NCBI GenBank assembly: GCA_015486075.1
Contig: WFSG01000033.1
Location: forward strand, 1-61,022
DNA length: 61,022 nucleotides
Origin: Deltaproteobacteria bacterium
GTDB lineage: Bacteria; Desulfobacterota; Desulfomonilia; UBA1062
Reading direction: 5' to 3'
Shown here: positions 19,897 through 23,369 of the stretch, piece by piece
Layout: each line of letters begins with the position of its first letter
How positions within the stretch are numbered: the first letter of the stretch is position 1
Made by a program: the position numbers and the translations under genes
The notes under the pieces: model-generated
The model's input: only the letters and a program-made list of their open reading frames with translations
What the model was told of the DNA's origin: nothing
Databases searched by the model: none

Positions 19897-20496
19897 ATGA
19901 TTCCTTCGAGAAAGCAAGCCATTGATATCATGAGAGCTAGGCATGTACCGCGGCACATAATCATGCACAGCCTCAGGGTAAGACAGGTTGCAGTAACCAT
20001 AGCAGGTATGCTGATCAATACAGGTCGTCCAATAGACATAAAACTTGTTGACAGGGCTGCTATACTCCATGACGTTTGCAAAATGGACTCGATCCTATCA
20101 GGCGGAGACCATGCATTGATGGGGCAGAAATTGATGCAAGAACTTGGATATCCTCTGGTTGGTAATATTGTCGGCCAGCACGTGTTTTTGAGAGAGATGA
20201 CCCTTGATGAGGCCATGGTGGTTAATTATTCCGACAAGAGGGTACGTCAGGATGTGGTTGTCTCGCTTGACCAGAGGTTTGTTGACCTCATGGATCGTTA
20301 TGCCAAGGGCGAGGAAAGCATTATAAGGCGTATTTTAGATCTTTATGATACGGCAAAGCAGGAAGAGGCAATAATTATGAACGCCTGTGGGATAGATCCT
20401 GACTGGCTCGTAAACCTAAACCTGATACCTGGAGATTATATTCTCGATGGTAGACTCGAGCTCCAGTGGGAGCACACTCTTGGCAAAGCTAAGTAA
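19897..20496 (+). CDS. HD-domain phosphohydrolase-like protein
   Basis: This encodes 199 residues. It has an HD-domain pattern: His 24 (M-H-S-L-R-V), the doublet His 58-Asp 59 (A-A-I-L-H-D-V-C-K), His 72 (G-G-D-H-A) and His 95 (V-G-Q-H-V). Such proteins hydrolyse nucleotides or phosphoesters with a bound metal; the substrate is unknown. It starts nine bases after lptD and is probably co-transcribed. Its last 81 bases overlap, tail to tail, the end of the response-regulator gene on the other strand. Confidence 0.8.
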   Translation: MIPSRKQAIDIMRARHVPRHIIMHSLRVRQVAVTIAGMLINTGRPIDIKLVDRAAILHDVCKMDSILSGGDHALMGQKLMQELGYPLVGNIVGQHVFLREMTLDEAMVVNYSDKRVRQDVVVSLDQRFVDLMDRYAKGEESIIRRILDLYDTAKQEEAIIMNACGIDPDWLVNLNLIPGDYILDGRLELQWEHTLGKAK

Positions 20497-21483
20497 GAGC
20501 AAGTAGATCTTGAAAGGGTATACCAGTATGAGCCTGTTATGGCTTATGAATGAAACCTTTACTATGCTTGAGAGTATTCCCTCAGGTAGGTAATCGGACA
20601 CCTTCAAGAAGAAACGTGTAGCAAAGGCTATATCCACGTGCCTTCCAATATCTCCCCTCCTGTAGATTTCCTCGCCGTCCGTGTTTACAATAGCCATACC
20701 TTGACAGTCGCTCATGGAAGAGATGTTTCTTATGAGTAGCTTGGTCTGCTCGTCTACTGATGGTGATTCATCTGCATCTACATTGCCCTTCTCAAGCTCC
20801 AGGCTCATCTCATCAGATTTTCTCATTCCTTCTATGAGGAGGTATTCCCAGTTCTTGGCTATGGTATGCCTGGGGGACCTCTCTCCACCCACGAACCTGA
20901 AGTCGCCGCTTGGCCACGATAGTATAATGTAAAGGGCATCTTCACCCTCTATTTCGCCAACGACTGCATGGACAATCTGGCCATCCTCGAAATAGATCAC
21001 ACCCTTTTTTTTGTTTTTATTGACGTAAAGCGCTGTTGTAGACTGGGAAAGACAGTTCATCTGGATGAGGTCTGGAAGTTGAAGACCGGATATGCTGCCT
21101 TTAAATCCAGCCCCATCCTCTCTCCTCAGTGCCTTAAGAATGAGGGATCTTAAGTCTTCTACGTCAAAGGGCTTTTCTATGTAATAAAGTGAACCCCTGG
21201 CCATGGCCTTTTCCCTTACATCAGAAGATCCGTATGCGGTCATGATGATGACCTTTGCCGATGGTATCTGTTTTCTTACCTTCAGAAGGAGATCAAGACC
21301 GTTTATACCAGGGAGACGAATATCCAGCACCACTGCATCAAAAGTCCTCGATGAAAGCTGTTCCAGGGCACTTTCCCCGCTGTTTACAGTTATTACTTGA
21401 TATATTTCCCTATCTTTGGCAAGGGCTTTCTCGAGCGACCAGGTAAGGGTTCTCTCATCGTCTACTATTAATACATGCTGCAT
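20416..21483 (-). CDS. Response regulator with PATAN (DUF4388) and Roadblock-like domains
   Basis: This encodes 355 residues. A REC domain covers about 1-118, with acidic residues 8 and 9, phospho-acceptor Asp 54 (V-V-L-D-I-R-L-P-G), Thr 82 and Lys 104. A PATAN/DUF4388 domain follows at about 127-200 (GFKGSISGLQLPDLIQMNCL; V-I-Y-F-E-D-G-Q-I-V-H-A). The last 110 residues look like a Roadblock/LC7 fold (I-R-N-I-S-S-M-S-D-C-Q-G-M-A-I-V-N-T-D-G-E-E). There is no DNA-binding domain, so output is probably by protein contact. It is the last gene of a four-gene minus-strand cassette and follows the HAMP-like gene by one base. Confidence 0.85.
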   Translation of the reverse strand: MQHVLIVDDERTLTWSLEKALAKDREIYQVITVNSGESALEQLSSRTFDAVVLDIRLPGINGLDLLLKVRKQIPSAKVIIMTAYGSSDVREKAMARGSLYYIEKPFDVEDLRSLILKALRREDGAGFKGSISGLQLPDLIQMNCLSQSTTALYVNKNKKKGVIYFEDGQIVHAVVGEIEGEDALYIILSWPSGDFRFVGGERSPRHTIAKNWEYLLIEGMRKSDEMSLELEKGNVDADESPSVDEQTKLLIRNISSMSDCQGMAIVNTDGEEIYRRGDIGRHVDIAFATRFFLKVSDYLPEGILSSIVKVSFISHNRLILVYPFKIYLLLLSFAKSVLPLELESTIENIISRYQV

Positions 21484-21484
21484 C

Positions 21485-22234
21485 TTACCTTACTCCCAGT
21501 TTCTCAAGGGCTATCGACAAAGATGCCTTGATCCTTTCCATGGAGCTGGCTAAAATTCTTTCTTCTAAGGTCCTTGGCACTGGGTAAGGTGAATCAAGAT
21601 CACCTTTACTCAGTGCATCCAGGCAGGAGATCATCCTCTTTATGGACCTAGTGGCAGAGAGTGCTGCAAATAGCGAGAATATAAAGGCAAGGATTCCACC
21701 TACCACCAGAGTAATCACAGTAGCGTGCTCTGCATTACGCTTAACCTTACCAAGATAATTCTTCTGGGCCAAGAGTAGGGCTTTCTCCCAGGTTTTAGGT
21801 TTTAGTCCCACGAGTGTGGCTGCATCCCCCGAAGGTACAACTGCAACCATGTAGCTCCTTGTTCTTGCTATTGAAGGTTTTCCCTGTGATATGGCCTTTA
21901 GAATGGGTCCGGCTTGGTCAAGAAGTTCGCGTATCTTGTACATGTATATGCCCTTATGGCCGGGGATGGTGGATGCCTTTATCCTAAGCGACTGGTTATC
22001 CACCAGCATTATCTCGCCCCAGGAACTTGGCAAGGAAATACTTTCTAGTTTAGATACATCCATTGCCTTCATTGTCTTAAGCATTATATTTGTATCTTCT
22101 TGATATAACCGCCCACTCAGGGTGTCCAGGTGTATTCCGTTTATTTTCTGCATGCCTGATGACGTCATAAAAAAAGCACAGAGTAGTATGAAAATGCAGC
22201 CGGTTAGCGTGACAAGAAATATCCTACTTCTCAC
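21485..22234 (-). CDS. Membrane sensor-like protein with periplasmic domain and HAMP-like region
   Basis: This encodes 249 residues from a GTG at 22234, chosen because GGAGG lies seven bases before it and the codon overlaps the previous stop as GTGA; a GTG eight codons upstream is the longest option. A first membrane segment lies near residues 5-23, a second near 170-195. About 145 residues between them should be periplasmic. A HAMP-like helix pair follows (S-I-K-R-M-I-S-C-L-D-A-L-S-K-G-D-L-D-S-P-Y). There is no kinase, cyclase or MCP signalling domain, so it must act through partners, probably the PATAN/Roadblock proteins encoded beside it. Confidence 0.72.
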   Translation of the reverse strand: MRSRIFLVTLTGCIFILLCAFFMTSSGMQKINGIHLDTLSGRLYQEDTNIMLKTMKAMDVSKLESISLPSSWGEIMLVDNQSLRIKASTIPGHKGIYMYKIRELLDQAGPILKAISQGKPSIARTRSYMVAVVPSGDAATLVGLKPKTWEKALLLAQKNYLGKVKRNAEHATVITLVVGGILAFIFSLFAALSATRSIKRMISCLDALSKGDLDSPYPVPRTLEERILASSMERIKASLSIALEKLGVR

Positions 22235-23043
22235 AACTTTTCCTCCAGCCTGATCCACGATGTCATCTTGTCCAGGAAAGCGATGGACGATTCTTCAGAG
22301 GGAATCTTCCCTGATATGGCCTCTATTAAGTAGGCTATTTCATCCATGTCTTCAGTTGTAAGGTCTATGCCCATCTCAACAGAGACATCCTTTATTATGA
22401 CCGGGGCAATAGGTCCTATTGCACATGTGAGTGCATCCAGCAGTGCGTTCACGACAGGTGTTTGCGGAAGGCCCGGCATTGTTTCCTTGTTTTCCAATAT
22501 CTGACGTTTGTTCTCCTTTATCAGTCCTCTTCTTATTAGTGTATAAAAGACCTTCATAGTATCAAACAAGCCCAATCCAAGACCTTGTGCTATGTCGTAG
22601 ATGGATCGATTTCCGTCTATATTGGCAAGTACCTTCCACTGTATACGGTTGAGCTTAATCTCGTTGTCCTTTACATCAGGCTCAATCGTGTACACAGTTG
22701 CACCTGATGGTATGATTGAGTTAATCTTGTCCATCAAGGCAAGACTTTTTGTAATCTCCTCCAGTAAATCATTCGTTGGTGTGGATATACTTTCCATGTC
22801 AGGTGTCTCATCTGTCAGGAAAATATATTCACCAGTGGTCCAGCTGGCCATTTCGTACAACGCAGGTATTCCACTAAGGCCACGGCACGTTGCGTGCACA
22901 ACATCACCATCTTTAAAGTAGATATTACCGGTTTCGGCCCCTGTGTTAAACGAAAGGCGGCCCGTTCGCTTGCCCAAGGAGAGTATCTTTATGAGTTCAG
23001 GGCAGCGTGTGCTATCGATTTCTCCACGGAATTCATGGTTCAT
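22231..23043 (-). CDS. PATAN (DUF4388) domain protein
   Basis: This encodes 270 residues. The N-terminal 80 residues match the PATAN/DUF4388 layout (G-R-L-S-F, then NIYFKDGDVVHATCRGLSG and E-Y-I-F). The middle (about 125-175) looks like a winged-helix segment (LNRIQWKVLANIDGNRSIYD, I-A-Q-G-L-G). The C-terminal about 80 residues resemble a small helical domain found in other proteins of this kind. Such proteins occur in Myxococcota and Desulfobacterota next to Roadblock GTPase-activator systems and two-component genes. Its start overlaps the Roadblock gene by four bases and its end overlaps the next gene by four. Confidence 0.78.
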   Translation of the reverse strand: MNHEFRGEIDSTRCPELIKILSLGKRTGRLSFNTGAETGNIYFKDGDVVHATCRGLSGIPALYEMASWTTGEYIFLTDETPDMESISTPTNDLLEEITKSLALMDKINSIIPSGATVYTIEPDVKDNEIKLNRIQWKVLANIDGNRSIYDIAQGLGLGLFDTMKVFYTLIRRGLIKENKRQILENKETMPGLPQTPVVNALLDALTCAIGPIAPVIIKDVSVEMGIDLTTEDMDEIAYLIEAISGKIPSEESSIAFLDKMTSWIRLEEKL

Positions 23044-23369
23044 CTTTTCTGGCCCTTTACAGTTCTTGCAGATATAAGCCTTCCCATCATGCGTAGCAGA
23101 GTATTGTTCGTTATCTTGTTAGAGAGTACCAGGAACATCAGGTCCTTGTTGATAAACATTGTGATATCCATGTCCTCCATGCACACCTCTACGATATCTC
23201 CTGGCCTTTTGTCTCCATCCATGACGTCATCATAGAGTTGTTTAAATCTGTCCTTCAGGTCTCGCGATTTGTATTCCACCGGGAACTTAATGCGCATTTT
23301 CTTGGCTGTTACAATGGCATATCCCCTTACCCCGGGGATTCTTAACAACTCTTTTATCGTGCCTTCCAT
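23040..23369 (-). CDS. Roadblock/LC7-like protein
   Basis: This encodes 109 residues. The pattern of a short helix, I-P-G-V-R-G-Y-A-I-V-T, a long central helix and the strands D-M-D-I-T-M-F-I-N-K-D-L-M-F-L-V-L suggest a Roadblock/LC7 fold like MglB, which regulates small GTPases. The match is by structure pattern rather than a strict motif. It is the first gene of the minus-strand cassette and is divergent from fliK. No partner MglA GTPase is in the window. Confidence 0.6.
   Translation of the reverse strand: MEGTIKELLRIPGVRGYAIVTAKKMRIKFPVEYKSRDLKDRFKQLYDDVMDGDKRPGDIVEVCMEDMDITMFINKDLMFLVLSNKITNNTLLRMMGRLISARTVKGQKR

Follow-up and report, generated by a model that had tools for sequence, protein, structure and literature searches.

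A conserved cassette of Roadblock, PATAN, HAMP and receiver-domain genes related to Mgl-type arrays in uncultured Deltaproteobacteria

Introduction

What could a membrane sensor, two Roadblock-like proteins and a response regulator transmit when none of them carries a catalytic output and no GTPase is encoded beside them? This question is raised by four genes in the stretch of DNA analysed here (the window), i.e. all 61,022 nucleotides of contig WFSG01000033.1 in assembly GCA_015486075.1, part of the 2.3-Mb draft genome of a Deltaproteobacteria bacterium (GTDB lineage Desulfobacterota; Desulfomonilia; UBA1062) whose related records are metagenome-assembled genomes of uncultured Deltaproteobacteria. 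An initial annotation, made from the sequence alone, had read these genes as a PATAN-Roadblock-HAMP-receiver (REC) cassette that might signal from the periplasm to a GTPase or to the flagellar pole. We find that the cassette is a real and conserved combination and a variant of Mgl/PATAN signalling, undescribed as far as the searched literature shows.

Results

The cassette comprises four adjacent and tightly packed minus-strand genes (20416-23369), which encode a 109-aa stand-alone protein of predicted Roadblock/LC7 fold that is divergent from Pfam Robl_LC7 (p109, 23040-23369), a 270-aa PATAN (DUF4388) protein (22231-23043), a membrane sensor (21485-22234), and a 355-aa REC-PATAN-Roadblock response regulator (20416-21483). 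Their spacing agrees with the 4-base overlaps or 1-base gaps initially described: the p109 and PATAN genes overlap by 4 bp, the REC gene begins 1 bp past the sensor gene, and the sensor gene most likely starts at a GTG at 22234, which gives a protein of 249 aa, the usual orthologue length, and a 4-bp GTGA overlap with the stop of the PATAN gene. An alternative, longer start from the open reading frame listing lies at 22258.

Whether relatives keep this set was a check proposed with the initial annotation, and they do: all four genes are present in unchanged order in 20 of the window family's 24 genomes (the window's own and 19 others, at ~30-69% identity). Since 19 other family genomes hold it in this order, the cassette is not a chance arrangement. 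It is cut by contig ends in G001 and G002, G006 keeps the PATAN and HAMP genes with p109 and REC missing at the locus, and none of the four genes was found in G003 (77% complete). By sequence, p109 was detected in all 8 family genomes sampled and in 0 of 239 other genomes of the phylum, while orthologues of the 270-aa PATAN protein are present in 22 family genomes, with distant relatives in other families.

Three other families of the phylum have homologous genes next to mglB-mglA, which upholds the proposed tie to Mgl-type GTPases. The array in G310 (L188) runs Roadblock, PATAN, Cache-HAMP, REC-PATAN-Roadblock, MglB, MglA, a helical protein, a PAS histidine kinase, NtrC, PilM, PilN, and PilO, with Pfam matches to Robl_LC7, HAMP/Cache, Ras/Arf, HisKA, and PilM. 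G229 (L185) has a similar array, with a tandem-PATAN gene and the Cache-HAMP gene absent from its usual place, and G051 shows the same order, split between two contigs that share an exact 114-bp overlap at their ends. Three genomes of family f39 carry the order MglB-MglA-helical-PATAN-tandem PATAN-Roadblock-like-PATAN-Cache-HAMP, and genomes of family f9 have a PATAN-Cache-HAMP-tandem PATAN set without adjoining Roadblock genes. Over REC and PATAN, the window's REC protein is 42-46% identical to the array regulators. Separately, the sensor gene of G051 contains a frame change in its Cache part (L052:9222-9788), either a sequencing error or decay, and the f9 set adjoins TRAP-transporter-like genes at L186, L187, L189, and L191.

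Pfam searches bore out the REC, PATAN, and HAMP reading of the proteins, the HAMP match being weak in the window and stronger in relatives. PF14332 (PATAN/DUF4388) exceeded the Pfam cut-off in both PATAN-bearing proteins, by far in each case: in the 270-aa protein (E=2.6e-15, 22744-23025), and in the 355-aa regulator, where PATAN (20806-21102) follows an equally clear REC domain (E=1.4e-25, 21139-21474) that holds all phosphorylation residues, with D8, D9, D54, T82, and K104 invariant in alignments. The PATAN domain of the 270-aa protein is followed by a winged-helix-like middle, matched weakly by HTH_47 (E=0.0043, under the cut-off), and a helical C-terminal region. In the sensor, a hydrophobicity scan placed two transmembrane (TM) segments around a periplasmic domain of ~150 aa, after which come HAMP (21533-21664) and a short conserved tail, a C-terminal helix with which the protein ends without an output domain. 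The window's HAMP falls under the Pfam cut-off (E=0.017, 15.9 bits), reaches E=5.6e-5 in the best orthologue, and is above cut-off in distant syntenic relatives; HHalign linked the sensor to Cache-TM-HAMP proteins of other families (probability 98.2, E=6e-14). These distant relatives carry Cache and the same tail, and the window's periplasmic part alone gave no HHalign link to Cache. As initially noted for kinase and cyclase outputs, Pfam detected no kinase, cyclase, or GTPase domain in the four cassette proteins, and hence no cognate histidine kinase within the cassette. The closest match in the window genome to the PAS kinase of the arrays is an unlinked PAS histidine kinase at G000:C41, with coordinates L201:8522-9529.

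Structure prediction and profile comparison support Roadblock folds for both p109 and the C-terminal domain of the REC protein (20425-20751), so that the initial assignment of these two parts was not overturned. An AlphaFold2 model of p109 built from 20 orthologues (pLDDT 86.5, pTM 0.80) has the topology H E E H E E E H, i.e. the Roadblock order of helices and strands, and its Foldseek matches in the PDB were, among those listed, overwhelmingly Roadblock, MglB, MglC, LAMTOR, and dynein Roadblock chains (probability 1.00, best TMq 0.71). The REC C-terminus was modelled with the same topology plus one extra 4-residue helix, at pLDDT ~80-88 over most of its length; its predicted fold lacks Foldseek confirmation because receiver-domain matches filled the results for the whole REC model. 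At the profile level, neither p109, in the window or its family, nor the window's REC C-terminus matched Pfam Robl_LC7 above the cut-off, direct HHalign comparison of both with class Roadblocks was weak (probability 1-2), and PDB profile searches gave noise or borderline matches. The HHalign evidence is convincing because syntenic intermediates bridge this weak direct comparison: p109 matched the same-position proteins of other families (probability 89.9), and these matched canonical Robl (95.6); for the REC C-terminus, the window family scored 32.4 against distant C-termini, and these scored 93.4 against Robl. Reversed-sequence controls in these bridge comparisons stayed <1. In G310, the counterpart of the REC protein scores above the Pfam Robl_LC7 cut-off of 23 (24.2 bits), and the syntenic p109-like protein just below it (20.5 bits).

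The absence of a nearby GTPase, also remarked on initially, holds for the window: the genome's only MglA-like protein is encoded on another contig (L038:8206-9069), and with no Pfam-recognisable Roadblock in this genome, mglA and mglB are not found together. Across the family, MglA is present in 22 of 24 genomes and a Pfam-recognisable Roadblock in 0 of 24. In a phylogenetic tree, the family MglA, which has a C-terminal extension and TPR neighbours, forms a clade separate from the array MglAs; we therefore rejected the idea that it is a relocated array MglA, and the MglB-MglA pair that belongs to the array was apparently lost from the family. Around this gene, a TPR protein, the C-terminally extended MglA, and a TPR/membrane protein form a cluster (L038:7170-11534) kept in the family members examined, which a PATAN/membrane protein adjoins in the window genome and in three of four others listed. 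An additional MglA-like gene of G006 lies among consecutive genes for response regulators and a histidine kinase (L206:3044-7945).

The flagellar neighbours, initially taken as a functional clue, did not hold up as one. Apart from the window, only its congener G001 has FliK-FlgD-FlgE next to the cassette. Most family members have a divergent gmhA on one side and convergent folC-lptD-HD on the other, and the array of other families continues into pilMNO. In the window, the REC gene and the plus-strand HD-domain gene (19897-20496) overlap tail-to-tail by 81 bp (20416-20496), and tail-to-tail overlaps of variable length are found in many family members. FliF is missing in G006, G014, G020, and G022. 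G014 and G020, candidate cassette-bearing aflagellate genomes on FliF alone, were dropped as such since FlhA shows both to be flagellate; G006 (97% complete) has neither marker and retains MglA and PilM along with its PATAN and HAMP genes. PilM is present in 23 of 24 family genomes, and another PATAN protein of the window genome adjoins a T2SSE-type ATPase. A PATAN-DnaJ-TPR protein of this genome (L039:7557-10542) has as its neighbour a T2SSE/MshEN-type ATPase with an apparently degenerate P-loop (GGHGKGST). The region L039:12533-13837 codes for a membrane protein that has a large extracytoplasmic part and lacks an evident output domain; it is followed by rnf-like genes.

Discussion

We propose that the cassette is a PATAN/Roadblock/Mgl-type array in dispersed and reduced form, acting on pilus or polarity machinery, a reading to which we give about an even chance. 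A relocated pilus or polarity module is favoured over a flagellar one because the homologues in related families adjoin a Ras-like polarity switch and type IV pilus genes, and a tie to pili or polarity is accordingly more likely than one to the flagellum. In Synechocystis, PATAN regulators bind PilB. Binding of PATAN regulators to the pilus motor PilB is reported in PMC10519157, citing Han 2022, and PMC7690835 describes it for PixE and PilB1.

From the genes, their order, folds, conservation, and linkage in other families, which are directly established, we infer every interaction of the cassette, its output, and its coupling to a GTPase. A periplasmic cue would shift the HAMP helices of the kinase-less sensor, which, having no catalytic output, would hand on the change by contact, to the PATAN adaptor and p109. 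The REC-PATAN-Roadblock protein would provide a second input, phosphorylated by an unlinked kinase for which the PAS histidine kinase at G000:C41 is a candidate. Roadblock domains usually dimerise, and p109 and the regulator's C-terminus could thus pair, which might bring the components together at the membrane or pole. The output would then consist in binding to other proteins, the likeliest targets being the motor of the type IV pilus and/or the genome's one remaining MglA. An extension of this scheme seems to us doubtful: in this family the two cryptic Roadblock proteins would have replaced MglB and brought an MglA-type GTPase under a response regulator and a membrane sensor that lacks a kinase, a bacterial arrangement that recalls Ragulator, a membrane-anchored Roadblock scaffold.

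Several observations weigh against a pilus or polarity role. No linkage of the cassette to pil genes or to mglA is seen within the window's family, and the family MglA belongs to a different clade, so that a shared pathway is not established; the pilMNO linkage of the array rests on two genomes (G229 and G310). In the f9 genome G048, which has the PATAN-HAMP pair, no Roadblock or MglA was detected anywhere in the genome, and a PATAN and HAMP core can therefore manage without a GTPase. The loss of p109 and REC in the aflagellate G006, although a single event, fits a flagellar link.

A flagellar role in the window's family, with the sensor and the REC-PATAN-Roadblock regulator placing or tuning the flagellar motor at the pole, finds support in the loss of both Roadblock genes from the only clearly aflagellate member, i.e. 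the sole high-completeness genome with neither flagellar marker. It would also suit the fliK-flgD-flgE neighbours in the window and its congener, and the presence of FliF or FlhA in 19 of the 20 genomes with a complete cassette, the exception (G022) being only 80% complete. However, the rest of the family has gmhA and folC-lptD-HD at these flanks, the homologous arrays include G051 without detectable FliF and continue into pilMNO in G229 and G310, and in the flagellate G048 the PATAN-HAMP pair lacks a Roadblock-like neighbour; overall, we regard this role as unlikely.

It is similarly improbable that PATAN and HAMP form a real sensor unit for a GTPase-independent target, with the Roadblocks only dimerising or scaffolding and no longer regulating any GTPase. 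Such a unit would be in line with the set kept in f9, including G048, with the retention of PATAN and HAMP only at the G006 locus, and with the loss of the array-type MglB-MglA pair from the window's family, but p109 and the REC C-terminus are intact in 20 genomes, and 22 of 24 retain an intact MglA. A role in envelope or lipopolysaccharide homeostasis, suggested by the lptD, folC, HD, and gmhA neighbours found in most of the family, is very unlikely, since these genes lie on the opposite strand outside the operon, gmhA is not a neighbour in the window's genus, other families have different neighbours, and we know of no envelope role for PATAN.

The array is of wider interest, since it unites PATAN regulators, Roadblock proteins, MglA polarity switches, and kinase-less HAMP sensors that are usually studied apart, and its conserved gene order predicts binding partners. 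In addition, a family that keeps MglA without a recognisable MglB provides a natural experiment on the requirements of a small polarity GTPase.

The initial annotation did not recognise the combination as described and, within the portions of the literature available to the search, we likewise found no description of a fixed array of Cache-HAMP sensor, REC-PATAN-Roadblock regulator, and pilMNO. Known systems resemble it in part. The actinobacterial conservon (CvnA-D) also groups several genes, among them those for a membrane sensor and a Roadblock protein, into a small module, but by Pfam the cassette lacks the kinase-like CvnA and the GTPase CvnD, and has PATAN and REC instead. Cyanobacterial PATAN-REC regulators (PatA, PixE, PixG, LsiR) likewise join PATAN to REC and are thought to work by protein contact on PilB, whereas the cassette regulator has REC at its N-terminus and PATAN in the centre, followed by Roadblock. 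The MglA/MglB polarity module of Myxococcus xanthus (MglA, MglB, RomR, MglC) shares Roadblock proteins and a receiver-domain protein with the cassette, and other families link the two directly through mglB-mglA; in contrast, the cassette locus lacks a GTPase, its family lacks a recognisable MglB, and the cassette also contains PATAN domains and a HAMP sensor that lacks a kinase. Makarova reportedly noted in 2006 that PATAN genes occur close to MglA/MglB genes. The same proximity is described by Wuichet and Sogaard-Andersen 2014 (PMC4316618), and the partner domains in this setting are the same as those that the cassette brings together.

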